Shown here piece after piece: positions 47,638 to 64,000 of a DNA stretch of 64,000 bases (position 1 is the first letter of the stretch; each line of letters opens with the position of its first letter). Source of the DNA: a virus. The stretch covers positions 50,201 to 114,200 of the IMG/VR virus record IMGVR_UViG_3300044539_000111. One strand, written 5' to 3'. Under the pieces are notes generated by a model. The model made no database searches and was not told the DNA's origin. It was given only the letters and a program-made list of their open reading frames with translations. Position numbers and translations under genes: made by a program.

Positions 47638-48129
47638 TTATGGTGTGCATGATTGAATCCAAATATCGCCAGGTCTTATTGCGTCATTTCCAGGAATAAA
47701 GTTTACACCAAATCCATCAACACCACCATACTGTGCAGTAAAGTCAGCAGCTACTGGTTGACTTGTTTGAACAAATACAGCAACTCCGCGACCAGAAAAT
47801 CCTTGATCACCTTGTAGCCCTGCTGCTCCAGTTGCTCCCGGTGCACCATCATTACCATTTGTTCCACTGATACCATTTGCTCCAGGCAATCCTGCAGATC
47901 CAACTAATCCCGAAGGACCAATAGGACCTTGTGGGCCTGTTAAACCAATAGGACCAGTTAAACCAGTCAAACCTTGAGCACCAGATGGCCCTTGTGGACC
48001 AGTCAAACCAATCAGTCCTTGCTCGCCCTTATCTCCTTTGTCGCCTTGATGTCCTCTTGGGCCACGAAGACCTTTAGGGATTACATTGCAATTTCCAGAA
48101 CAATTATTATTTCCACAGTTTTCACACAT
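47638..48129 (-). CDS. Collagen-like short fibre protein (163 aa)
   Basis: Starts MCENCGNNNCSGNC, a compact cysteine cluster, followed by about 32 Gly-x-y triplets (residues 20-115; GDKGDKGEQ, GPQGPSG and so on). It ends in a short 48-residue tail (VAVFVQTSQPVAADF, then NFIPGNDAIRPGDIWIQSC). The triplets predict a collagen triple helix, with the cysteine cluster a likely base or cross-link. It is flanked at 4 and 11 bases by other appendage genes. Probably a virion fibre or a shaft for another tip protein. Confidence 0.8.
   Translation of the reverse strand: MCENCGNNNCSGNCNVIPKGLRGPRGHQGDKGDKGEQGLIGLTGPQGPSGAQGLTGLTGPIGLTGPQGPIGPSGLVGSAGLPGANGISGTNGNDGAPGATGAAGLQGDQGFSGRGVAVFVQTSQPVAADFTAQYGGVDGFGVNFIPGNDAIRPGDIWIQSCTP
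47785..48072 (-). repeat. Collagen-like Gly-x-y repeat region (about 32 triplets)
   Basis: Residues 20-115 of the 163-residue fibre protein are uninterrupted Gly-x-y triplets, many GPQ, GPI, GLT and GDK. At DNA level this is a 9-base-scale imperfect repeat. Confidence 0.85.
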
Positions 48130-48139
48130 GTCTAAAATT

Positions 48140-48937
48140 TTATGCTAATATAACAACTCTTACTTTTGTAAGTAGATCAAGGGTATATTGTATATTTATT
48201 ACAATTTCGCCACTTGCTTCACTTATTTTTAAGTCATAACCTTGACCAAGTACAGGATTATGTGGCATTAAGTACCAAGTACCTCCATTATCATAATAAA
48301 CTTGTGTATGTAAATCACACATTTTATCAACAAATAAATCATCTGATGAACAAGCCGTAGGAAGTAATCCACAAGTTTCTAATTCTACTCTTGAAATAGT
48401 AATTACCTCACTAGAAAGTGTTGCTAATTGTTCATGCACAAATTTATATGCATTAGTTCCATTTGTTCCCGGATCACCTTGCGGACCTATAGGTCCTTCT
48501 GGACCAACTTCTCCTTGTATCCCTTGAGGTCCTTCTGGACCTACTGGGCCAGGGATTGAAGCAACTTCGCATATAAATACTGAAAGCAATTGGATTGCAA
48601 TTTGTAATGACGTTCCCGCTGGAACAACTACAACACCCTCACATATAAGATCAATAGTTATTGTCAAACCTTGTTGTGCACAAAAAAAGTCAACCATCCG
48701 ATTTAAGGCTATAGAAACAGATGATCCAGAATCAACTACCATATCATTACCGCATACAATTGGAGCATCTGTATAAATTATACACTTGCTGTCTGTAATT
48801 TCAGTACATGGCTGAGGAGTAGGACAGACCGGTTCCTCACAACCACAAGCACATTCACAATGAGTTTGTGCAGTTTGATTATGTACATGTGTACTTGGTA
48901 CTACATGATTATTTTGTTGACAAGATGAACATCCCAT
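48140..48937 (-). CDS. Cys-rich fibre protein with short collagen-like segment (265 aa)
   Basis: Starts MGCSSCQQNNH, followed by a His/Cys-rich stretch (HCECACGCEEPVC). The middle has two similar short helix/strand units ending in a cysteine (DSGSSVSIALNRMVDFFC and PAGTSLQIAIQLLSVFIC), a duplicated module. Eleven Gly-x-y triplets (residues 130-162) lead to a C-terminal domain of about 100 residues. It is one of a run of appendage genes with cysteine-rich starts. Fibre function is inferred from the collagen segment and location. Confidence 0.75.
   Translation of the reverse strand: MGCSSCQQNNHVVPSTHVHNQTAQTHCECACGCEEPVCPTPQPCTEITDSKCIIYTDAPIVCGNDMVVDSGSSVSIALNRMVDFFCAQQGLTITIDLICEGVVVVPAGTSLQIAIQLLSVFICEVASIPGPVGPEGPQGIQGEVGPEGPIGPQGDPGTNGTNAYKFVHEQLATLSSEVITISRVELETCGLLPTACSSDDLFVDKMCDLHTQVYYDNGGTWYLMPHNPVLGQGYDLKISEASGEIVINIQYTLDLLTKVRVVILA
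48452..48550 (-). repeat. Collagen-like Gly-x-y repeat region (11 triplets)
   Basis: Residues 130-162 of the 265-residue protein; GPV, GPE, GPI and GPQ triplets. Confidence 0.8.
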
Positions 48938-48961
48938 TTTTAGTAATTTTTAATTTTATAA

Positions 48962-49795
48962 TTATACAGGCACTGGACCACCACCGCCTCCGCCACTAGT
49001 AGCTTCAACCCATTTTAAATATGTTTCTGATGAAGCCATTATCATTTCGCAACCGTTACACTGAATAACAAGTCCCAAATTTACAATAACTCCTAGAATA
49101 TTTAAATAATCTTCAGCCGTTAATTCTGGATGGTTTAATTGCAGATAGTTAAACAAAATGCCTAATCCGCTATATCCATTAAATGATGAAGACTCTAAGA
49201 TTCCAATTTGAAAAAGATCATCCAAATAAAAATTAGCACTTGATGAACTTGATGCATCAAACCATTGTTGAATTGCTTCATTGAAATCAGTATTGCAACA
49301 TGGATATTGATCTTGTGTTGCTTCTAAAACTTTTAACCATGTTTCAATAGTAGTTGCATGTTCTAAACAACAAATTCTTATTTTTGAACCAAGTAAAAAC
49401 TGTTGCACCATTAAAAAATTATCCGCGCCACCTAAATAGTAAATACCATTTTTGCAATCAGGGCAACAAAGATTCTTATTATTTGAAATAGATATTCCTC
49501 CAGATAATGTTTCAATCAATGCTGTAGTTACGTCTAAAGTAAATTTAAGTTGTCTATCAGGAACTGCATCAACAGGGTATTTAATTCCAACTTCAGCATT
49601 AACTGCAACTTCACCTATTGGAACTTTAACAGATTTCCCTCCTTTTGAAATATTTGCTAAAATCTGCAATACTGTAAGATTATCTGAATCAGTTCCTACC
49701 AACGAAAATACTCCTTTAAACATATAGATCAAAGGATTGATACATGTAGTTACTTCACATGTACATTTACTTGTTTTACATTTTTTACAGCCCAT
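48962..49795 (-). CDS. Cys-rich appendage protein, paralogue of the next gene upstream (277 aa)
   Basis: Starts MGCKKCKTSKCTCEVTTC. From residue 100 on it matches the 329-residue protein encoded just upstream: CCPDCKNGIYYLGG, ICCLEH, PCCNTDFNEAIQQW, a helical section, then VIQCNGCEMIM and TYLKWVEA. The paired cysteines are conserved between the two, so they are likely structural (metal or disulfide). It ends in a glycine-rich tail (SGGGGGGPVPV). No collagen repeat. Gene duplication within a fibre cluster fits diversification of host-contact proteins, but no binding function can be read from the sequence. Confidence 0.7.
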   Translation of the reverse strand: MGCKKCKTSKCTCEVTTCINPLIYMFKGVFSLVGTDSDNLTVLQILANISKGGKSVKVPIGEVAVNAEVGIKYPVDAVPDRQLKFTLDVTTALIETLSGGISISNNKNLCCPDCKNGIYYLGGADNFLMVQQFLLGSKIRICCLEHATTIETWLKVLEATQDQYPCCNTDFNEAIQQWFDASSSSSANFYLDDLFQIGILESSSFNGYSGLGILFNYLQLNHPELTAEDYLNILGVIVNLGLVIQCNGCEMIMASSETYLKWVEATSGGGGGGPVPV

Positions 49796-49806
49796 TGCTT
49801 ATTTTA

Positions 49807-50796
49807 TTAATCATATATAACTTCAAGTGACATCATTCCTCCAGAACAATTTGCAAGATATGTAAGAGCAGGCATTTGACATCTAATTCTTCCATCCCCA
49901 TTGTTAAAGTAAGTTCCATACTGTAAAAAACAAGAATTTATTTGTACAGGTGGATTAGAATTAAACATTGCTACTAAAGCATCAATATCTGTTTGATTTG
50001 TTCCATAACAAGCTGCAAACTGGATTCCCATGCATTTATATATAATTGAGTTATATGTTGCACCATTTTCTAATATTTGACTGTAAACGCTATATGTTTT
50101 TTGTGGAGGAAGAGGTGTTGATCCACATCCACCATTTTGTAACCATTTTGTAAATGTTTGAGGATTTCCAATAAACACATTACAGTCGCAGCAATAAGAA
50201 ACAAATCCTTTTTGTATAATAGCTATAAAGACATCTGAAATTGTTTCTCCTTGAAATAAATCTTCTGGTGTATTAATAAGCAAATTGTAAATTTTACAAA
50301 GAAGTGTGTTATCATAACCATTAACTTCCACAACTCCTGTATCAAGTAATGTAAGCATATCTACAATAGTTGAAAACTGATTTAAACAACTTTCAAAATC
50401 ATTACTGCAACAAGCTGGTGGCACATCCCAATTTTCTAAATAATCTGGATAAATTTGAGCAGATGCTGCAACATTTATACAACATATTGGCGATGGTATT
50501 GATTTACCTAGTGTATTAAATATTTCCACTCCCCCTAAAAAATAAAATGGAGCATCCTTACAGTTTGGACAACAAATATTTGAAGCATCTGACAATACTA
50601 GCCCACCACCTATCAAAGAACCAAACCAATCTTGTACTGACAATGTTTCATCAAGCAGGGCTTGATTAATAGCCATGTTCCATGTATATGTAAAAGAATC
50701 CACACAACCGTTAACTATAGGAACAATTGGTTCTGGACAACATACAGGAGTCTTAATTATTATCGCATTATTCTGCGGAGTGCATTTCTTTTTCAT
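49807..50796 (-). CDS. Cys-rich appendage protein (329 aa)
   Basis: Paralogue of the 277-residue protein: NICCPNCKDAPFYFLGG, PICCINVA, ACCSNDFESCLNQF, LLINTPEDLF, SDVFIAIIQKGFVSYCCDC and TFTKWLQNGG. The N-terminus is basic and carries another CC pair (TPVCCPEP). The last 90 residues (SVYSQILENGATYNSIIYK onward) are an extra domain absent from the paralogue. It follows the 170-residue gene after 1 base. Likely a virion appendage component; function unrecognised. Confidence 0.7.
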   Translation of the reverse strand: MKKKCTPQNNAIIIKTPVCCPEPIVPIVNGCVDSFTYTWNMAINQALLDETLSVQDWFGSLIGGGLVLSDASNICCPNCKDAPFYFLGGVEIFNTLGKSIPSPICCINVAASAQIYPDYLENWDVPPACCSNDFESCLNQFSTIVDMLTLLDTGVVEVNGYDNTLLCKIYNLLINTPEDLFQGETISDVFIAIIQKGFVSYCCDCNVFIGNPQTFTKWLQNGGCGSTPLPPQKTYSVYSQILENGATYNSIIYKCMGIQFAACYGTNQTDIDALVAMFNSNPPVQINSCFLQYGTYFNNGDGRIRCQMPALTYLANCSGGMMSLEVIYD

Positions 50797-50797
50797 C

Positions 50798-51310
50798 TTA
50801 TCCGCCTATTAAAAGATTAACCTGTGCTTGCAATGCAGCAATTTGTTGTTGCATTTGAGCTAAAGCATTATTCTGTGTTTGAATCAATACTTGTTGATCA
50901 CAAAGTTTAGAACCAATAGCGGTTATGTATTCAGTCATTGACATAACTACGCCATACTGTTGTTGAAAACATGCAGCAACTGCCATTTCGCATTCAGGAC
51001 AACCAGTAGTTCCACCTGTTGTTACAGATGTTCCTGTATTTACTTTTGCAATAGTGTCAATAAGTAATTGAATAAGTTCAACAAAGTTTGCTGGTGGACA
51101 TTCTGTACTTATTAACTCTGATAAATCATAAGATTGAACATCAAGCATTTCAAAGATTTTGCAAATCCTTTTAGCTAATTCATTTATGACATCGCTAATT
51201 GTATCACCATGACACAAATTAATGCAACACAAATCTGGTCCTTGCCATACAACACAGTTACTTGTTGTTACAGCACATCCAGAACTTCTAGTATTTGTTG
51301 GCTTTCCCAT
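50798..51310 (-). CDS. Cys-rich small fibre-base-like protein with C-terminal coiled coil (170 aa)
   Basis: The N-terminal 50 residues (GCAVTTSNCVVWQGPDLCC, then INLCHGDTISDVINELAKRIC) resemble a module at the base of many Bacteroidota-phage fibre proteins: C, VxWxGPD, CxxLCxGDxxSDV and a following helix. The C-terminus is a coiled coil (QTQNNALAQMQQQIAALQAQ), suggesting oligomerisation. A 39-base AT-rich gap lies before it, and the next gene starts 1 base after. A structural or adaptor role is inferred. Confidence 0.7.
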   Translation of the reverse strand: MGKPTNTRSSGCAVTTSNCVVWQGPDLCCINLCHGDTISDVINELAKRICKIFEMLDVQSYDLSELISTECPPANFVELIQLLIDTIAKVNTGTSVTTGGTTGCPECEMAVAACFQQQYGVVMSMTEYITAIGSKLCDQQVLIQTQNNALAQMQQQIAALQAQVNLLIGG

Positions 51311-51349
51311 AGCTAATAATATACAAATTTTTAATTTAATTTCCTAATT

Positions 51350-52810
51350 TTAATTACAATCCACTCCTTCAGTAAACTGCACCTGCAGTAAATCTTGATT
51401 GTTTGCAAGAATGTAAATATCAGCGGATGTTTGCGCTGTTATACCACATACAAAAACTTCATAAGGTGTGCTAGCTGAATAGAACATAACAGTTCTAACA
51501 ACTCGGTTGCAATCTTTAAAATACAACCATCCTTCCACATTAATTGGAATAATGATTGAATACTTTTTACATGTACCTGGAAGTGGAGCAATTGGACAAC
51601 ACGCGTTTGGATCCTCTGCAATATCCATCTTTAAGATTTCATGTTCTATTGTTGATTGCATTAGATCTGTAGGACAACAGAATTGTATTCCATATCTTAA
51701 TGCTAATACTTTTTCATAGTTTGCATCTCCAAATGCACAAAAGATTTGTTCTGCATCAAAAGGTTCTGCGTTGTTTACTATAAAATCAGGGTAAATCATC
51801 TTGTGATTTGTAACTGGAGGAATTGTTACCGGTTTTGGTAAACATTCCTGGCATGTGCTCACGCACTCAGTTTCAATAAAAAAGTCCTGCCATAGTATTT
51901 CTTCCCATTCTTCAAAACATTCCGCCTCTGTTACGCGGTAACATCCGGTGATAACATTTGCATTGATGTCTTTAATAGTTGTTAAAACAACTTCTAAAAA
52001 GTCATCTGGATGATTGTTGTTACTTGTTAAACCTTGGAATACAAATACTCCAGGTAAACCATTTACAACTAATGCTTCTCCTGTTGAACAACAAGTTAAT
52101 TGGTATCTTTCTTCTGGATAATTTAAAGTAGGATCTATTGTTGGAACAACTGGTTCTATTGCCTTACAAATGTAAGATTGAAATCTATTACTTTGCCATG
52201 ATGTTATTACACCTTCTTCTGCTGGCACTAAATTTGTTGAATTAAGTGTGTCAATAATAGTTAATGCATCTCCTAAAACAGTTGATGAATACCATACTTG
52301 ATCATCTATTGAAAACCAAACAAATACAACAGGCTGTGTCCAAGTATTAAGAATCTCATAATAGTTATGTCCATCATACGTTCCAGTTGGTCCTACAAAA
52401 GAATAAATAGGTTGACCTAATGTAATATTACCAACTCCTAGCCATTGAAAAAATAATGAGTTACATGTTGTATTGCAATCACAACACATTGGTGTAGTAA
52501 CTAACCCTGTATAAATAGCATCAAACCAATTTTGTGTATTAGCTGGATCTGGTCCAGCTGGCGGGTTTGCTGATTTTAAAATAAAACAACCATTGGTTAC
52601 ATTGCCTGATGAATCTGTAAAACTAGTTATGATTTGAGGATCAATTACAAGATCCATTGGCTGAATATCAAAAAAAACTCCAGTGTATTTAATGTACACA
52701 GGTGTTCCTGCATAAGGATGTCCTGTAGGATACACATACACTTGATTGCTACAACAATCTATAATAGTATAATACTTATTATTTTTTGGAGTTTCTGAAT
52801 TTGTTGCCAT
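51350..52810 (-). CDS. Cys-rich appendage protein with internal repeats (486 aa)
   Basis: Contains an internal duplication. Around residues 13-110 the sequence reads YYTIIDCCSNQVY, GVFFDI, ITSFTDSSGNVTNGCFIL. Around 232-330 it reads YQLTCCSTGEALVV, GVFVFQGL, LTTIKDINANVITGCYRV. Both repeats are followed by cysteine clusters (MCCDCNTTC and CVSTCQECLP). A shorter related stretch near the C-terminus reads CKKYSIII, LYFKDCNRVV. The units look like small beta domains in tandem. The start lies 1 base after the 46-residue gene. A host-facing or shaft protein is plausible; no known fold is recognised. Confidence 0.7.
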   Translation of the reverse strand: MATNSETPKNNKYYTIIDCCSNQVYVYPTGHPYAGTPVYIKYTGVFFDIQPMDLVIDPQIITSFTDSSGNVTNGCFILKSANPPAGPDPANTQNWFDAIYTGLVTTPMCCDCNTTCNSLFFQWLGVGNITLGQPIYSFVGPTGTYDGHNYYEILNTWTQPVVFVWFSIDDQVWYSSTVLGDALTIIDTLNSTNLVPAEEGVITSWQSNRFQSYICKAIEPVVPTIDPTLNYPEERYQLTCCSTGEALVVNGLPGVFVFQGLTSNNNHPDDFLEVVLTTIKDINANVITGCYRVTEAECFEEWEEILWQDFFIETECVSTCQECLPKPVTIPPVTNHKMIYPDFIVNNAEPFDAEQIFCAFGDANYEKVLALRYGIQFCCPTDLMQSTIEHEILKMDIAEDPNACCPIAPLPGTCKKYSIIIPINVEGWLYFKDCNRVVRTVMFYSASTPYEVFVCGITAQTSADIYILANNQDLLQVQFTEGVDCN

Positions 52811-52811
52811 T

Positions 52812-52952
52812 TTATTTCTTTATTTGACCTTCAGCAATTTGCTGATTGACCGTATTAACGCAAGCGGTACAACAAGATGTACCATTTGTTGCATTTACAA
52901 TGTATGTTCCTGTACAAGTACATACTCCACAATTTTGACAGTTCTGAGCCAT
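52812..52952 (-). CDS. Small Cys-rich protein (46 aa)
   Basis: ATG at 52950-52952, TAA at 52812-52814. The sequence begins MAQNCQNCGVCTCTG and has a second cluster, TSCCTAC, seven cysteines in all. It fits exactly between the 186-residue gene stop (52954) and the 486-residue gene start (52810), one base from each, which supports coding. The cysteine pattern resembles the N-terminal clusters of its neighbours, so it could be a separate base or cross-linking piece for them. Function unknown. Confidence 0.7.
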   Translation of the reverse strand: MAQNCQNCGVCTCTGTYIVNATNGTSCCTACVNTVNQQIAEGQIKK

Positions 52953-52953
52953 T

Positions 52954-53514
52954 TTAGCAAAGTTTACATGAATAATTATCTAATAATTTTTTGGCATAGT
53001 TATACAAAACCATTGCCTGATCATGGTCTAAACAGTATTCAGCTTTTGCTTGAGCCGCATCTATGTAACCAGTAATCTCCATCAAAGATATAAATTTATT
53101 CTTAGTTTCTGGAATTGGTTCACATGCACTCAATTTAAGTTTGCACCATTCCTCTTTCAGTTGTTTTCTTAAAGCTGTAACACGCAAATGATTGTATTCA
53201 ACATACATTTTATCATGCGGAGATAGGGCATACTTAATGACATAAATCCCATCAGGTAATGAATGGAACTCAGTTCCACAACATTCAGTTTGTATTTTTA
53301 AATCACAAGCAGTGAGATTAAGAATAAATCCTTTATAAATTGGTGGAAAAGTTGTGTCATTGAAAGTGATGCAATCTCTATATCCAGGTACTAATACTTG
53401 GACAGTAGGGCAAACATAAGGCATGAGTAAATCATACACACTTGTGTCTTCTATGCGAAGAACACAATCTGTCATAATGTTTGGAATATTTAAACTTAAT
53501 GAATTTGTTGCCAT
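52954..53514 (-). CDS. Conserved Bacteroidota-phage structural protein (186 aa)
   Basis: The sequence has a pattern I recognise from many Bacteroidota phages: CVLRIEDTSVYDLLMPYVCP, VPGY, LNLTACDLKIQTECCG, LPDGIYVIKYALSPHDKMY, VEYNHLR, then helices with further cysteines ending NYSCKLC. It probably forms a structural adaptor for appendages; its exact position in the virion is unknown to me. It begins just after the strong terminator that follows the 530-residue gene, so it is either read through or has its own promoter (none clear). Confidence 0.72.
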   Translation of the reverse strand: MATNSLSLNIPNIMTDCVLRIEDTSVYDLLMPYVCPTVQVLVPGYRDCITFNDTTFPPIYKGFILNLTACDLKIQTECCGTEFHSLPDGIYVIKYALSPHDKMYVEYNHLRVTALRKQLKEEWCKLKLSACEPIPETKNKFISLMEITGYIDAAQAKAEYCLDHDQAMVLYNYAKKLLDNYSCKLC

Positions 53515-53587: not shown

Positions 53588-55180
53588 TTAAAGAACTGCT
53601 GGTGTATAAGCAGTATGACCAAAAGTATTCAATGTTACAACTCCACCAACTGCAGCTGCACCCAACCATGTTGCCATGAATGTTTCAAATGCTGTTGCTG
53701 TAGCAGCAGTAACATAGATGTTCAATGCATATTGATCATCATCATAAACACCACTAGGGTTATTATAACGAGGAACACTGTGCTGGATTACATAACGCGT
53801 GTACAACGCATTACGGTTAACCGCAGTAAAGTACTGATTTCCTTGAGTGATCTCACGGATACGAACATCATCAGAGAAATGATTTTGTAAGTATGACTCA
53901 TCAAGAATCACATCACGCAATACAGTTTCACCATATCCTTGTCCTGTAAATCCAGCATATTCTTTAGTAGCACAAAGTGCAGAGAAATCACATGGATCAC
54001 CAGTCAAATCTGTCAATGATAAGTTCATCTGAATGATTTCTTTTTCATAGAAATCATTATTTTGGAATGAACAGTTACCAAATTTAGTTTCAATGTAAGC
54101 TCCAATCAAACGAATACCAGCTAATGCGCCAGCAATGTATCCTGGAGATACATAAGTTGACCATACATTAGTTCCAGGGAAACCTGCAGCAATTGCTTCA
54201 GCAGCTGTAGCAAACAATGGAACACCTGTTTGAGTATAAACGATTGGACGAACAAAGTACTGCAACCATACATCAGTTACGATTTGGTTAGCCCAATTGA
54301 TCATTACCAATGTAGAATCTACATTTCCTGGTACAATTGTACCTGTTGGACAACAACCTGTATAAGCTGCAAAAGTTTTGTACAAGTCATGATTCAAGAA
54401 ACGCAATACGGGTGAACCCCATAAGTCAACACGAAGATTATAAGTTTCTCCACATACAAAGTTAAATTTGCATGGATTACTTCCTACTGCATTGTATTTA
54501 ATTGTTGCAACTGGAATTGAAGCAGCCGTACCCGGTGTAAATGGAATTGAAGCTGGTAATGTTAAAACATCACCTACTGTATATCCTTGACCAGGTTGTG
54601 TAATTGTAATTGACGCGATTGCACCACCTGCAGTTGTTACTACTGTAGCAAATGCACCTACACCTGCGCCACTATCTACAAGAGCAACATTAGTATAAGT
54701 TTGAGATGCAGCATAACCAGTACCTGGTACAAGAGCACCTAAAGTTGCAATTGAATCAGAATTCCAGTTTGTGTTTCCTAAATGCCAAATTGATTGCTCT
54801 GGAGCAGCACCTGTCATTTTAGAAAATTTGTGAACAAATCGCGGATTGATCATCTTTGATTTATTAGATTCTTTGTACCCTCCGTGGAAAGGTCCAATCT
54901 TATCATCAGTAAACAAAGATGCAGCAGCAAAAACCAATGGTTTTCCTGCAACTACTTCCGCAGATGCGTTGTTTACAGATACATAAGTGTTTGGATTAAA
55001 GAATCCATAAGTACCAACTCCTAATGAATTTGGTGCAACAGCGTTTGCTAAAGCTGATGTTGGTACACCTGCGTCTAACAAAAATCCGTTATTCACCGCA
55101 TTGGATGTACCAGGTACATTTGCTTGGGTTGCTTTTGTTCCGACAAATGATTTGCGGTAAGCATGATTAAAATAACTCAT
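53588..55180 (-). CDS. Abundant structural protein candidate (530 aa)
   Basis: Residues 1-150 are Ala/Asn/Gly-rich. Residues about 155-240 hold a beta-type domain with an internal near-repeat of the GxGY type (PGTGYAASQTYTNVALVDSG, then ITQPGQGYTVGDVLTL), common in phage structural proteins. The remainder has RVDLWGSPVLRFLNHDLYKT, TGCCPTG and EYAGFTGQGYGET. The gene is a compact unit: promoter-like boxes at 55220-55254 and a strong hairpin terminator after the stop, as expected for a product needed in many copies. It could be a tail, head-decoration or other major virion protein; I cannot decide which. Confidence 0.75.
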   Translation of the reverse strand: MSYFNHAYRKSFVGTKATQANVPGTSNAVNNGFLLDAGVPTSALANAVAPNSLGVGTYGFFNPNTYVSVNNASAEVVAGKPLVFAAASLFTDDKIGPFHGGYKESNKSKMINPRFVHKFSKMTGAAPEQSIWHLGNTNWNSDSIATLGALVPGTGYAASQTYTNVALVDSGAGVGAFATVVTTAGGAIASITITQPGQGYTVGDVLTLPASIPFTPGTAASIPVATIKYNAVGSNPCKFNFVCGETYNLRVDLWGSPVLRFLNHDLYKTFAAYTGCCPTGTIVPGNVDSTLVMINWANQIVTDVWLQYFVRPIVYTQTGVPLFATAAEAIAAGFPGTNVWSTYVSPGYIAGALAGIRLIGAYIETKFGNCSFQNNDFYEKEIIQMNLSLTDLTGDPCDFSALCATKEYAGFTGQGYGETVLRDVILDESYLQNHFSDDVRIREITQGNQYFTAVNRNALYTRYVIQHSVPRYNNPSGVYDDDQYALNIYVTAATATAFETFMATWLGAAAVGGVVTLNTFGHTAYTPAVL

Positions 55181-55254: not shown

Positions 55255-55392
55255 TTATTTTTTAGTTTTTGCTTTTACTGAAGATTTTCCTTTTGTTGGC
55301 GTTTTACCAGCTTCTTTATCTTTTGCACTTTTGATCCATGGTGGAACCCATTTATCTTTAGCAGGTGCTGCTTTTTTCTTTGCTGTTGCCAT
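55255..55392 (-). CDS. Very small Lys-rich protein (45 aa)
   Basis: ATG at 55390-55392, TAA at 55255-55257. Sequence begins MATAKKKAAPAKDKWVPPWI and ends KSSVKAKTKK; about a third is lysine, with a central Trp/Pro motif (KWVPPWIKSAKDK). It starts 2 bases after the Dps-like gene stop and ends just before the promoter-like region of the 530-residue gene. It resembles the small basic proteins further up the operon. A DNA-associated or capsid-interior role is a guess. Confidence 0.7.
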   Translation of the reverse strand: MATAKKKAAPAKDKWVPPWIKSAKDKEAGKTPTKGKSSVKAKTKK

Positions 55393-55394
55393 GA

Positions 55395-55856
55395 TTATTT
55401 TAAAAATAAAAGTTTGTACTTTGTTGAACCTAGTAATCTTTTTACATTGTCTAGTTCATTGCTAATTTCTGAGAAACACATAATGTCTTGTAAAGCACAA
55501 ATCATGTCATAGATTTCTCTGATGTAAACAATACCTTCTTCTACAGAATTAAGACTTCTTGGACAACAGTCTGGAAGAACTAAAATTCTTTCAGCTGCTC
55601 CTTGGTATGCTTCTGTAATTGTATCTACTAGATCGGGTAATCCGTCATACAACCCACCCAATGCAGTATGCATAGCAAATGCACTAGGGCCTGATACTTT
55701 TAAATGAAGTTTATGAAATGAAATGGAAGCATTCATTAATTCACAAATACAAGCAGTTGTTTCTTCAACACAATGATTACCTGATGGCTTTGTGTAAGCA
55801 GGACTCGCTGCTGGTTGTGTTGGTCTTTTTAATAGACCTCTTTGTGGTGAGTTCAT
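55395..55856 (-). CDS. Dps/ferritin-like protein (153 aa)
   Basis: A four-helix-type protein whose central segment aligns without gaps to the ferroxidase region of Dps: HKLHLKVSGPSAF, then MHTALGGLYDGL, then DLVDTITEAYQG. H51, H63, D78 and E82 fall at the same spacing (and here the same numbers) as the E. coli Dps ligands; the position matching D67 is glycine. Length is slightly below typical Dps (about 167). The N-terminal 25 residues are Pro/Lys-rich and probably flexible. Uncharacterised phage relatives (DUF5856-type, from memory) share this pattern. Near both ends are cysteine pairs (ACIC, DCC). It lies between the ring/connector gene and a small basic gene, so it may be a virion part rather than an iron store. 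Confidence 0.72.
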   Translation of the reverse strand: MNSPQRGLLKRPTQPAASPAYTKPSGNHCVEETTACICELMNASISFHKLHLKVSGPSAFAMHTALGGLYDGLPDLVDTITEAYQGAAERILVLPDCCPRSLNSVEEGIVYIREIYDMICALQDIMCFSEISNELDNVKRLLGSTKYKLLFLK

Positions 55857-55862
55857 TATATA

Positions 55863-56564
55863 TTAGTTATTAGTTTCTACTGAGTTATCTGCAATTTGAT
55901 TTGCAGTAACATCTTCAAGATCTCCTGCTAGAATTTTTACACATTCATCAATGAATAACTCAACAATATCATCTTTAAATTCACATTCAACATTTACAGT
56001 TGAAACAAGTCCCGTATATGGATCTGATGTTCCTGGAATTTGTATTCTCCTTGGTTGTCTGTAATAAGTTAAAACTGTGTTTTCTAATTCAAAATCATTG
56101 TTTGTGTAAACTTTAATTTTATTTCCTAGTACTGTAGCAAAAGTTTCAGCCCATTCAAAACTTGGTTTTTTATTATGATCCCTCAAAAGTTCATCTACGT
56201 TTGCTTCTTCTGCAAGATAAATTACCATTTGTCTTTTATCACAACAATCTTTTTTTGATTTGCTAGAAATTCTTTTCCACTCAAAATAGTCTGAAGGTAA
56301 AGTTGGAGATTGAAAGTACAAATCTTTTTTGACCATTGCTAACGGTTTGTCTGAAAGCAAAACTTGTAAATCATCAATACGTCTTTTACTAGCTTCATCA
56401 CCAGTCTTAGTCATATTAGTTCCCATCAAGTTTCTTCTGCACCAAGTTACTTGTGCTTTATTAAAAGCTTCAACAATTTGCCAAGGCATAATGTTGTCAT
56501 AGTCATTACTAGCCAATTTATTAATTCGCTGTTTGACTTTTATTTGTATGGTGTCATTTGTCAT
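55863..56564 (-). CDS. Ring / head-tail connector protein, crAss-like (233 aa)
   Basis: Pattern matches a connector/ring protein of crAss-like phages: MPWQIVEAFNKAQVTWCRRN, GDEASKRRIDDLQVLLSD, LPSDYFEWKRIS, EEANVDELLRDHNKKPSFEW, then a beta section (LTYYRQPRRIQIPG) and a C-terminal helix (DDIVELFIDECVKILAGD) ending in SVETNN. Expected to sit between portal and tail. Its ATG overlaps the previous small gene's stop in an ATGA arrangement, suggesting coupled translation. No enzymatic motif. Confidence 0.8.
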   Translation of the reverse strand: MTNDTIQIKVKQRINKLASNDYDNIMPWQIVEAFNKAQVTWCRRNLMGTNMTKTGDEASKRRIDDLQVLLSDKPLAMVKKDLYFQSPTLPSDYFEWKRISSKSKKDCCDKRQMVIYLAEEANVDELLRDHNKKPSFEWAETFATVLGNKIKVYTNNDFELENTVLTYYRQPRRIQIPGTSDPYTGLVSTVNVECEFKDDIVELFIDECVKILAGDLEDVTANQIADNSVETNN

Positions 56565-56739: not shown

Positions 56740-57012
56740 TTAACAATTCCACTTCCTTAATGCAAGAGTTTTTCTTGTAGGTTCTCCATTTGGTTTTTTA
56801 GCAGGTCCAGGCATTCCGGACATTCTAGCACAAAAACTTTTTCTTCTTTTAGCATCTTTACTTCCAGCTTTAAGCTTAGAAGGTTTAGTAGTAACTGCGG
56901 TTTGTAATTTACTTCCTGGATTAGCTCTTCTATAAGAAGCAACTCCTTTAGCATTTAATCCACCTGTCTTATTTTTTCCTTCTGATCTTGTCCATGCTGC
57001 AGTCTTTGCCAT
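56740..57012 (-). CDS. Conserved small basic phage protein, DUF6321-like (90 aa)
   Basis: Sequence pattern AAWTRSEGKNKTGGLNAKG, then VASYRRANPGSKL, KRRKSFCARMSGMPGP and TRKTLALRKWNC matches a widespread small phage protein family (DUF6321-type, from memory). It is strongly basic and ends in the typical WNC/WDC. Its start overlaps the previous gene's stop (TGATG). Function of the family is not known to me; its frequent place near head genes suggests a virion or packaging role. Confidence 0.8.
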   Translation of the reverse strand: MAKTAAWTRSEGKNKTGGLNAKGVASYRRANPGSKLQTAVTTKPSKLKAGSKDAKRRKSFCARMSGMPGPAKKPNGEPTRKTLALRKWNC

Positions 57013-58986: not shown

Positions 58987-60603
58987 TTATAATGAACCTC
59001 CCGTGATTGGGTTTCTCATAACAATTTTCAACACTTTAGTAGGATCTTCTACTTTGATTGCAGGCATTGCCTGAGTCATGTAAACTTGGTATCCGTTGAA
59101 GTTACCTGAAGAAGCAAACCCTTGAGTTCTTCCCATGTAATCCATAGAACCATTTACATATCTCCAAACAAGATCTTTGTTCCAAGCACATTTCAACAAT
59201 TTGATATTGTCTTGACCGTTCTCAGTAATATCAAAGATGATAAATGAGTAAGAAGACAAACGGAAACCATCAATGATTGGGTTTTCAATCTCGTTATTTT
59301 GCAAGTTGTCAAACGCAGGGTTTAAAACAAACTTCACATTTGCCAAGAAAGGAATTGTGTAGCTTGTGAAAGAGAAACCGTAAGACAAGTCCATTCCTGA
59401 ACCTTTTACTGCTTCCAATTCTTTTGCGTTCATTACCAATCCTGATGCAAAAGCCTCACGCTTGATTGCTTCATTGATAATACGCATACCACCCATTCCA
59501 GTTTGAACAATCAATTCACGCTTTGGATCTGGTCCTTGGAAATCAACTTTACCATTGTAGAAGTTGAAAATCTCAGAACGGAAGATGTCAAGACGGAAAT
59601 CAGATTTGTTGTAAACATGCTTGTAAGACAAGTCTAATTGTTTCCACAAACCAACTGACAAACGAAGATCATCTGGACCATCTTGCTTGATACGTCCACC
59701 TTTACCCCACATAAGGTATGTTTCAATATCATAAGCAATTTTAGAAAGGTGAGCTGCTTCCAACTTAGTGATGAAAGAACGAACCAAGTTTCCATTGTCC
59801 ATTGCTTTTTTCACATAACCTTGTCCTTTAGCAGCAACCATTCCTTCCAATGTATTGATAGATGGATCCATTGACGTATCAAAGTTTTTCCAAATTTCAG
59901 TTACAGGAATTGAACCGTCAGCTTGCATACCACCTTTCTCCATCAACTTCACTTTAGATGAAATTGTATAGTGAATATGTGCATCTGCATTACCAACATA
60001 GTTGTAGAACTCACGAGTTGTGTGAGTCATAGAAAGATCTGAGTAACGCTCACCGTACTCACCACGCGCAGAACCTACACGGAAGAAGTAAGTGTTGTTT
60101 GTCAAGAAACGGTTATCAAACGTTGCAGCTGAATCATTGTTCGGCATTTGCACTGTGTAGATATAACCATCACCCATGTCTAAGATGTCCTCATCTGTAA
60201 CATAAAGTTCTTTTCCATTGAATTTGTCATAAGTGATGATGTCACCATGTCCAAATACACGCTTGTTCAATTTAATCTTGAACGGAGTGCCATCTACACC
60301 TTTGATAGTGTTTGACGGATCAAGATCTTCCATTATGAAAGGAAGTTCTTCAGATACAGGTGTTGACCACTTGTATTCACCTCTTGGGTGGTTTACCTCA
60401 ATAACATTCTTTCCGCTAAAAGAAGACATTTGATACAAAGGCATCTCCAACTTTTTAACTTGCGCCCAAAGTTCAATTGGTCCCAAATCATCTGGTTGTG
60501 CGTCTTTCATCAAATTCATCAAGTGGTAAGAATCCACATGAGAGCTTGCTGTGTAATAGTTGTCCCGAAGGAACATCCCATTATTTAAAACTGGTGTACT
60601 CAT
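58987..60603 (-). CDS. Major capsid protein candidate (538 aa)
   Basis: Directly follows the scaffold-like gene and is followed by a hairpin terminator, the usual place for the major capsid gene. The N-terminus (MSTPVLNNGMFLRDNYYTAS) is followed by LWAQVKKLEMPLYQMSSFSG, an extended acidic loop region, a long helix region (EAAHLSKIAYDIETYLMWGK) and beta-rich C-terminal strands (KFVLNPAFDN, SSYSFIIFDITENG), ending NPITGGSL. This organisation fits an HK97-fold capsid protein of crAss-like size. Leader is A-rich with no Shine-Dalgarno. The fold itself is inferred, not shown. Confidence 0.83.
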   Translation of the reverse strand: MSTPVLNNGMFLRDNYYTASSHVDSYHLMNLMKDAQPDDLGPIELWAQVKKLEMPLYQMSSFSGKNVIEVNHPRGEYKWSTPVSEELPFIMEDLDPSNTIKGVDGTPFKIKLNKRVFGHGDIITYDKFNGKELYVTDEDILDMGDGYIYTVQMPNNDSAATFDNRFLTNNTYFFRVGSARGEYGERYSDLSMTHTTREFYNYVGNADAHIHYTISSKVKLMEKGGMQADGSIPVTEIWKNFDTSMDPSINTLEGMVAAKGQGYVKKAMDNGNLVRSFITKLEAAHLSKIAYDIETYLMWGKGGRIKQDGPDDLRLSVGLWKQLDLSYKHVYNKSDFRLDIFRSEIFNFYNGKVDFQGPDPKRELIVQTGMGGMRIINEAIKREAFASGLVMNAKELEAVKGSGMDLSYGFSFTSYTIPFLANVKFVLNPAFDNLQNNEIENPIIDGFRLSSYSFIIFDITENGQDNIKLLKCAWNKDLVWRYVNGSMDYMGRTQGFASSGNFNGYQVYMTQAMPAIKVEDPTKVLKIVMRNPITGGSL

Positions 60604-62042: not shown

Positions 62043-64000
62043 TTACTTGCTAGGTTTTTTCTGATCAAACTTGTTTTTATTTTCCTGAGCAATAGCTAAT
62101 TCAACTTGTTTGTTTCTTGATTCATTTACCATTTTTTCTCTGTCCAAGTCTAACTTTTGCTGATGAACATCTTTTTTATTAGATTCTTTTTCTCTGTTAA
62201 AGTTCATAGTATCAGCATATTGTTCAGATTCTCTAACATCTTTCAATACATCTTGGAAATCAGATTGATTATTTTTATTGACATCTTGCATAGCACCATA
62301 ACCAGCTGCTTTGATTTCTGCTTCAAGTAATCTAGCTCTACGATCTTTTTCTTTCTCTCTAGACACATGATCCATTTCCATTTGTTTTTCTTGTTGTCTA
62401 GCTTGAATTTCAGCTTCTTGTTGTTGTTGTGCAGCTTGCATTTCTTCTTTTCTTCTTTCTTCAGATTTTGTTTCAATCCCTTTAAGAATAGTATTCAATG
62501 AGCCAATTGAGTCAGATTGTATTAACTCTCCTAAATCATAAACAGAAGCACCAGTTGTATTGTTACTCATGAACACTTGTTTGAGTTGTTCAAGTGTATT
62601 TCTATTAGTAGCGTTGGTTAAACAGAATACATTTAAATCAACTAATAGTAAATCTGTACCATTGATCTCAAAGTTTGTTCTCTCATCTGGAGAAATCATT
62701 CCTTGCAATCTAACTGATGGTTTTGTTGAATGATAAAACTGTGCTAGATCTGTTCTCATTTGATGCACACGCGGCATTAAATGATCACTGTGCTGAATAA
62801 AGTAAGTTTCAGTTTGAGCATAAGAACCAGACATTGCTTGTTCAATACCTGTTGCGGTATTTATTTGTCCAAGCTGTTGTCCCATTCGTTGTGGATTTAA
62901 ACCAACAACTTCCATGGCCTGTGCTTTAAAGTAATTAGCCAATTGGATTCTAGACATCAATCTGTTTGATTGCTCAAGATTTAAAACTTGATAATGCTGA
63001 AAGTTTGTAGCACTTTCCGTATTAGCAATACTTGGATCTAATGGAAGCATTGAAAAATCCTTCATGGCTACATACGCTTTTGCAAGATTGTTTTTACCCC
63101 AGTCTTCACCCATTGAATGTTTTGGAATTGCATTCTGATCAAGTACAATTACTGAGCCTAATTCATCCACAAGAATATCTGCAATTTGATTGTTGCAAAT
63201 GTTATATCCAATTTGTGAGGGCTTTAGCAAATCAACAAATGATGTTGACTTGGTATTCCTATCTGAAAACACTCTTCCTTCAATTGGAAGTTTAGCTCCA
63301 TACATTGTTTTATCACCACGGAATTGGAATTTTAATGGTCCTGGTTTATCCCTGTCAATTCCTAAATAGATTGGATCAAAATCAGTATCAGTTTCTGTAT
63401 TGAAAATAGTTCTGTTATTTCCAATTTTTACTCCACCCCATACTTGGTTAATCCAAAACCAATCAATGTGATCACCAAAGATTAAATTATCTCCAGTTTC
63501 TTTTTTCTCAAATACTTTGTTGTAAATAGGTTTTGTAGTTACTACATAGTTCTCATCTATAATTTCTGTAATAACTGCACCATCTTCATCAATTTTAGTC
63601 AATTGACCAACGCGTCTTTGAGTTTTCCAATAAGATGTAGACACGCGCAACAATTCAACAGTATGTAAATTCCCAGCATGTTCACTTTGTCCAACAATGT
63701 AGGATACAACATCATGAGGATCATGTGCGTTTTCTACAAATGCTAAATGTCTACGCATATCTACACCAGACCTTCTGTTAGATTCATAAGTATCATCCGT
63801 ATTGTACAATGAACCGTCATTTGGAATACCATCAATCATGTGTCTAGCTGAACGTGCTGGATGTAATAGCTCAAGTGATTCTAATTGTTCAGCAGTCATC
63901 AAGTAACCATACTTATCTACAACATCTGCAATAGTAAGCATGTCAATCCATCCCGCCCAGTTACCTTGAGAAATGTAATGTACATTTCTCAAGGTAACTG
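62043..64000 (-). CDS. Portal protein (partial, 5' end beyond window)
   Basis: An open frame of about 650 residues reaches the right edge without a convincing start. The ATG-like opening is a TTG at 63990-63992 inside an inverted repeat, so the N-terminus is missing or distorted. Sequence pattern: GNWAGWIDMLTIADVVDKYG, then WINQVWGGVKIGNNR, KFQFRGDKTMYGAKLPIEGR, and a long glutamine/glutamate coiled coil at the C-terminus (EERRKEEMQAAQQQQEAEIQ). It precedes the scaffold-like and capsid genes. This matches the portal of crAss-like phages, the dodecameric ring that passes DNA. Portal identity is based on pattern and order. Confidence 0.8.
   Translation of the reverse strand, partial: VTLRNVHYISQGNWAGWIDMLTIADVVDKYGYLMTAEQLESLELLHPARSARHMIDGIPNDGSLYNTDDTYESNRRSGVDMRRHLAFVENAHDPHDVVSYIVGQSEHAGNLHTVELLRVSTSYWKTQRRVGQLTKIDEDGAVITEIIDENYVVTTKPIYNKVFEKKETGDNLIFGDHIDWFWINQVWGGVKIGNNRTIFNTETDTDFDPIYLGIDRDKPGPLKFQFRGDKTMYGAKLPIEGRVFSDRNTKSTSFVDLLKPSQIGYNICNNQIADILVDELGSVIVLDQNAIPKHSMGEDWGKNNLAKAYVAMKDFSMLPLDPSIANTESATNFQHYQVLNLEQSNRLMSRIQLANYFKAQAMEVVGLNPQRMGQQLGQINTATGIEQAMSGSYAQTETYFIQHSDHLMPRVHQMRTDLAQFYHSTKPSVRLQGMISPDERTNFEINGTDLLLVDLNVFCLTNATNRNTLEQLKQVFMSNNTTGASVYDLGELIQSDSIGSLNTILKGIETKSEERRKEEMQAAQQQQEAEIQARQQEKQMEMDHVSREKEKDRRARLLEAEIKAAGYGAMQDVNKNNQSDFQDVLKDVRESEQYADTMNFNREKESNKKDVHQQKLDLDREKMVNESRNKQVELAIAQENKNKFDQKKPSK
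63958..64000. repeat. Perfect 20-bp inverted repeat at window edge
   Basis: Arms 63958-63977 and 63981-64000 are exactly complementary, with a 3-base loop (ATG). It lies inside the portal frame and reaches the last base, so the arms may extend beyond. It may be a fold-back artefact of amplification or assembly, or a true hairpin. Confidence 0.9.

Follow-up and report, generated by a model that had tools for sequence, protein, structure and literature searches.

A predicted Dps-like ferroxidase of the DUF5856 family behind the tail ring gene of a crass-like phage, and its replacement by ferritins in relatives

Why should a phage place a gene for a Dps-like protein directly behind the gene for a ring of its tail? 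The question is raised by a small gene in the window, the 64,000-nucleotide stretch of DNA analyzed here, which belongs to a virus record of 114,200 bases. The record encodes a portal and a major capsid protein of Crassvirus type. An earlier sequence-only reading had described the product as a Dps-like protein with ferroxidase ligands and had left its role between DNA binding, iron handling and a structural use of the fold. The gene lies among the virion structural genes of an aquatic crass-like phage, Table 1, and its frame runs from an ATG at 55856 to a stop at 55397-55395, exactly as had been read in both coordinates and strand. By capsid protein the nearest phage with a name is Leptolyngbya phage Lbo-JY46, which is without the DUF5856 gene. 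A host inference from bacterial genome contigs was uninformative, giving only two fragments, in one metagenome-assembled bin. A search of the available literature returned nothing on DUF5856 by name and nothing on Crassvirales with ferritin.

Table 1. Features of the DUF5856 locus, in window coordinates
Feature	Position	Strand	Basis
Dps-like ferroxidase protein (predicted), DUF5856, 153 aa	55395..55856	-	Pfam PF19174, PHROG 858, AlphaFold2 model, Foldseek
Four-helix bundle, residues 27-152	55401..55778	-	AlphaFold2 model, Foldseek
Predicted iron ligand His51	55704..55706	-	Invariant
Predicted iron ligand His63	55668..55670	-	Invariant
Predicted iron ligand Asp78	55623..55625	-	Invariant
Predicted iron ligand Glu82	55611..55613	-	Invariant
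N-terminal tag MNSPQRGLLKRP, common to DUF5856 proteins and ferritins at the slot	55821..55856	-	Motif comparison
Disordered linker, residues 13-26	55779..55820	-	pLDDT <50 for residues 1-25
Tail-barrel ring protein, directly upstream (6-nt gap), syntenic anchor	55863..56564	-	PHROG virion structural protein; crAss001 ring fold
Small Lys-rich protein, 45 aa, downstream	55255..55392	-	Similar small ORFs at the same place in loci L047 and L049
530-aa probable virion protein, downstream slot anchor	53588..55180	-	Synteny; weak PHROG structural matches
Crass-like major capsid protein, query for relatives	58987..60603	-	Pfam Crass_capsid 2.3e-27
Portal protein, extends to window edge	62043..63992	-	PHROG 6547 portal 1e-57

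Fold and predicted iron ligands

The 153-aa protein matches the Pfam family DUF5856 with an E value of 3.8e-11 (44.3 bits, against a cut-off of 34.6) and PHROG 858, annotated 'starvation-inducible transcriptional regulator', at 4e-19. Its sequence matches solved Dps structures weakly (2d5k, E 0.005), and Pfam Ferritin (PF00210) is matched neither by this protein nor by anything else in the whole record; one DUF5856 relative, L077, matches that family weakly (E 0.001). An AlphaFold2 model built with 21 relatives has helices at residues 27-53, 59-88, 105-125 and 129-152 and a mean pLDDT of 82.5. Nearly all of the best 50 Foldseek matches in the PDB are Dps proteins, with TM scores of up to 0.70 at probability 1.00, none of them at E <= 0.001. 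The predicted fold is thus the four-helix bundle that a Dps-like protein calls for, in agreement with the earlier reading. The short BC helix expected of Dps, which forms the two-fold interface, is absent from the model, where residues 89-104 are a loop. Among predicted viral structures in BFVD the model matches Dps-like proteins of phages cr108_1 and cr106_1 and of CrAss-like virus ctDAq1 (A0A7M1RX14, A0A7M1RWN9, A0A8S5QTN3), as well as three entries named 'Prohead protease' (A0A6J7WIS1, A0A6J7WPK9, A0A6J7XDU5), which match over part of their length and are possibly protease-Dps fusions.

His51, His63, Asp78 and Glu82 do occur at the numbers given for them, with the spacing of 12/15/4 that had been quoted for E. 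coli Dps, and the search for relatives in other phages that had been proposed finds them with the same residues in place. All four are invariant, both in 72 members from crass-like phages and in 17 that other phages encode. Of the 111 well-filled columns that make up the core of an alignment of 88 homologues only nine are invariant (H48, H51, H63, Y70, D78, E82, G86, D136 and L149), and the four predicted ligands are all among them (hypergeometric P 2e-5), so that ligand conservation in the family is more than chance. The inter-subunit Dps ferroxidase ligand set is His, His, Asp/Glu, Asp and Glu, of which four are invariant here and the fifth, at position 67, is variable. The residue at 67 is Gly in the window protein, as noted earlier; among the 72 crass-like members it is Asn in 43, Gly in 25, Asp in two and Gln in two. 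With Asn or Gly standing in for the Asp67 ligand in most members, the second iron site is probably degenerate, its carboxylate missing across most of the family and not from the window protein alone.

Ferritins replace the DUF5856 protein behind the ring gene

The product of the gene upstream has a predicted fold matching the crAss001 tail-barrel ring protein (7qoj_D, E 8e-12, TM 0.73); the comparison of folds was needed because a PDB sequence search with the ring protein gave nothing useful, as was also the case for a 330-aa protein. It is this upstream gene that had been read as a connector gene, and the place of the Dps-like gene in a virion gene block is supported. Other genes nearby deserve mention. 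The small downstream protein is rich in Lys and Pro (MATAKKKAAPAK..WVPPW), and close relatives of it stand directly behind the ring gene in the cargo-free loci L047 and L049. Just upstream of the ring gene a basic 90-aa DUF6321 protein is encoded (56740-57012, minus strand); this domain is found in >500 phage records, mostly of cyanophages. It aligns with the C-terminal end of PHROG families that are long (928, 525 and 450 positions) and sometimes carry the annotation structural protein. A run of Cys-rich proteins whose order is conserved in relatives lies at 47638-53514 (minus strand), and two of these, 47638-48129 and 48140-48937 (minus strand), have collagen-like Gly-Pro-Gln repeats.

In order to see what relatives carry at this place we have collected 160 loci from viral contigs, most of them fragments, using as query either the window capsid protein or a ring protein from the clade with ferritins. 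In 114 distinct ring genes the next gene encodes DUF5856 in 77 cases, a ferritin in 13 and neither in 20, the other four being truncated. After removal of identical proteins 105 non-redundant loci remain, 72 with DUF5856, 13 with an FtnA-type ferritin and 20 with neither, a class that may hide a very divergent protein; these fractions are not population estimates, since the relatives were picked by similarity to those queries. The ferritins match Pfam PF00210 (3.8e-22 for L101) and FtnA-type PDB entries, and the six FtnA-aligned residues of the ferroxidase center (E, E..H, E, Q..E) are kept in 13/13. Thirteen records with an empty slot contain neither ferritin nor DUF5856 anywhere, which leaves no duplicate or relocated ferritin in them; there is no DUF5856 in the two ferritin records that were examined and no Pfam ferritin in the window's own record. 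An assembly chimera is an unlikely source of the ferritins, given 13 distinct loci and one identical locus recovered from three samples.

On a tree of the 105 ring proteins the three states of the slot require at least 20 changes, and the ferritin state alone 10, of which nine are forced by well-supported branches. Sister loci can hold different cargo. The ring DNA of L160 (ferritin) and L161 (DUF5856) is 92-100% identical, and shortly after the slot gene begins identity falls to about 40%; in the pairs L184/L203 and L151/L168 the DNA is similar up to the slot start, dissimilar across the slot and homologous again behind it. The changes on the tree and the breaks between sister loci argue for many swaps of the cargo gene at this one position, with the virion genes around it kept.

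A tag common to both folds

The predicted bundle of the window protein is preceded by a short tag and a disordered linker, Table 1. With a strict motif, [LIMV]-[KR]-R-[PNDTS] within the first 18 residues, the tag is found in 64/85 slot proteins (54/72 DUF5856 proteins and 10/13 ferritins) and in 2/1251 of the remaining proteins encoded at these loci, a contrast for which a Fisher test overstates independence because the slot sequences are related. Among ORFs of at least 90 aa in the whole window record the DUF5856 protein is the only one to carry the tag in its first 18 residues. On both folds it typically reads MEKPRMLKR or MxxFLKRP. It starts at residues 5-9 in DUF5856 proteins and is followed by a variable linker of 7-44 residues, whose net charge in the tagged relatives is -3 to +1 (median -1); in the slot ferritins it starts at residues 4-9, with linkers of 6-32 residues and a net charge of +2 to +5. 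Within one clade the N-termini are nearly identical across folds, MEFPAPNMLKRTLK in L164 (DUF5856) and MENPSPNMLKRTLK in L169 (ferritin), as would fit an exchange occurring behind the tag. The contrast with neighboring genes and the occurrence on two unrelated folds are not accounted for by domain descent alone. About a quarter of the slot proteins are without the strict motif, and L177, L182, L187 and L195, from deep clades, lack or vary the tag.

We have rejected the reading that the tag is a side effect of the A-rich starts of highly expressed genes, since the other genes of the same loci are without it. Encapsulin targeting peptides are of the type L-x-[IVL]-x and usually C-terminal, from which the N-terminal, LKR-type slot tag differs. 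A second motif, [LIV]-[STAGQ]-R-P, is present in the linker of 21/57 tagged DUF5856 proteins (L060, L066 and L071, for example), and by eye the linker of the ferritin L173 has ISRP. In a second phage group, L009-L026, several DUF5856 genes follow the gene of a ~1100-aa probable internal virion protein; at some of these loci the translated alignment runs upstream through the stop into the C-terminus of that protein (ISGLLQQRQ), which resembles the slot tag by eye.

Function and relation to known systems

There is good support for a ferroxidase encoded at the slot, because two ferritin-superfamily folds with the same chemistry occupy one place; oxidation of iron by these proteins is predicted. 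The explanation to which we lean, at slightly better than even, is that a Dps-type ferroxidase is produced along with the tail ring protein and tethered by its tag to the particle or to an assembly intermediate, as an exchangeable ferritin-type cargo. The conserved LKR tag and flexible linker would dock the protein on a component of either; there the protein would oxidize Fe(II) with peroxide or oxygen and store it, sparing phage DNA, packaged or incoming, from Fenton chemistry. The Dps-like protein would presumably assemble as a 12-mer cage and the ferritin as a 24-mer, and the variable linker lengths along with this presumed switch fit a flexible tether better than a part built into the virion. 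From the operon position, the tag and the data on Salmonella phage Sajous1 we infer that a particle-borne protein is the likeliest reading; the docking in the virion, the partner of the tag and the benefit to the phage are likewise put forward as presumed features. Mass spectrometry of Sajous1 particles purified on CsCl gave 10 spectra of gp217, called 'ferritin' by Phyre2, and the authors of that study caution that low spectral counts can be contaminants (PMC10892097). We find gp217 to be a DUF5856 protein (1.3e-28) without the slot-type tag. Internal cargo proteins in crassvirus virions are established for crAss001 (PMC10172136), and in an environmental podovirus the DUF5856 gene is directly behind the portal gene.

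The protein could instead be a late-expressed soluble ferroxidase that shields the infected cell or replicating DNA against iron and peroxide and stays outside the particle, its operon place serving timing and dose. Phage Dps enzymes have been read in this way in gut phages (PMC8008677) and likewise in Lactobacillus phages (PMC6669764); the slot is empty in some loci, and DUF5856 genes of T4-like and Ackermannviridae phages are found among non-structural genes, some lying outside structural blocks (RB49 rI.-1; Menlow, where the gene adjoins a primase). We nevertheless consider a soluble enzyme rather unlikely, as it leaves unexplained both the virion spectra of gp217 and a tag common to two unrelated folds at one locus. 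The arms of Dps-family proteins bind DNA in several species, and the sequence-only reading saw such an arm in the N-terminus, so that the basic residues might bind phage DNA and the particle carry a nucleoid protein. The short tag is indeed basic, and in slot ferritins it is often followed by further K/R. The arm itself is weakened as an interpretation by the median linker charge in DUF5856 proteins, by the presence of the same tag on ferritins of the FtnA type, for which DNA binding is not known, and because the strongest conserved basic residues lie in the tag. The motif keeps a hydrophobic residue and a constant position close to the N-terminus, more in the manner of a docking peptide, and a packaging role appears improbable.

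Still less probable is the 'Ferrojan horse', in which ferritin-bound iron on the particle exploits host iron uptake at adsorption. It was proposed for Vi01-like phages from gp217, of the same family, yet in that study hosts deficient in TonB or FeoB were infected about as efficiently (PMC10892097). The slot gene does follow a tail ring gene, but a cage encloses iron instead of displaying it. We give the least credence, next to none, to a Dps fold reused as a purely structural virion part with ligands as relics, which had been offered earlier on. The gene is in a structural block, and Dps, like a dodecameric ring, is built of 12 subunits; the ligands, however, stay invariant in a core where most columns vary, another fold, which has a complete ferroxidase center of its own, can take over the position, and 20/105 loci have an empty slot.

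For DUF5856, a 'family of unknown function' widespread in phages, these results make a ferroxidase activity testable, with replacement by true ferritins at the same place as functional evidence independent of, and beyond, single-gene annotation. Should the tag indeed dock the protein to the virion, these abundant aquatic phages would be iron-handling particles, with a bearing on virus-iron interactions in water, on protection of packaged DNA and on engineering of phage capsids with ferritin cargo.

Phage proteins of DUF5856/PHROG 858 elsewhere (T4-like rI.-1, Ackermannviridae, small podoviruses) have the same Pfam domain and the same invariant H51/H63/D78/E82; those that we read from other groups are without tag plus linker, do not stand behind a crass ring gene and show no ferritin exchange. 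Bacterial Dps likewise is a four-helix bundle with ligands on helices A and B at identical spacing; it differs in its BC helix, missing from our model, in Asp67, replaced by Asn or Gly in most DUF5856 members, in a Lys-rich arm where these have a tag and a near-neutral linker, and by low sequence identity. Gut phages, Gratiaviridae among them, encode DPS enzymes, of Dps type as here, which are described as host-protective auxiliary enzymes, with slot exchange and tag absent from the available text (PMC8008677). The cargo of phicrAss001 (gp45, gp46 and RNA polymerase subunits) is protein inside a crassvirus virion (PMC10172136), the place that the slot protein would share; none of it is described as ferritin-like, and the slot protein is small. 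Encapsulins hold encapsulated ferritin-like proteins in which a disordered linker joins the ferroxidase to a short targeting peptide at one terminus (PMC11202242). The encapsulin shell has the HK97 fold of phage capsids. The cargo tags of encapsulins are mostly C-terminal and differ from LKR, whose docking role is a candidate one, and the encapsulated proteins form no cages of their own, unlike those presumed for the slot proteins. It is a tentative view, to which we would give slightly less than an even chance, that ferritin-superfamily cages are interchangeable tag-docked virion cargo, one tag serving Dps-like 12-mers and FtnA-type 24-mers through repeated gene exchange at the slot, and so a viral counterpart of ferritin-loaded encapsulins.
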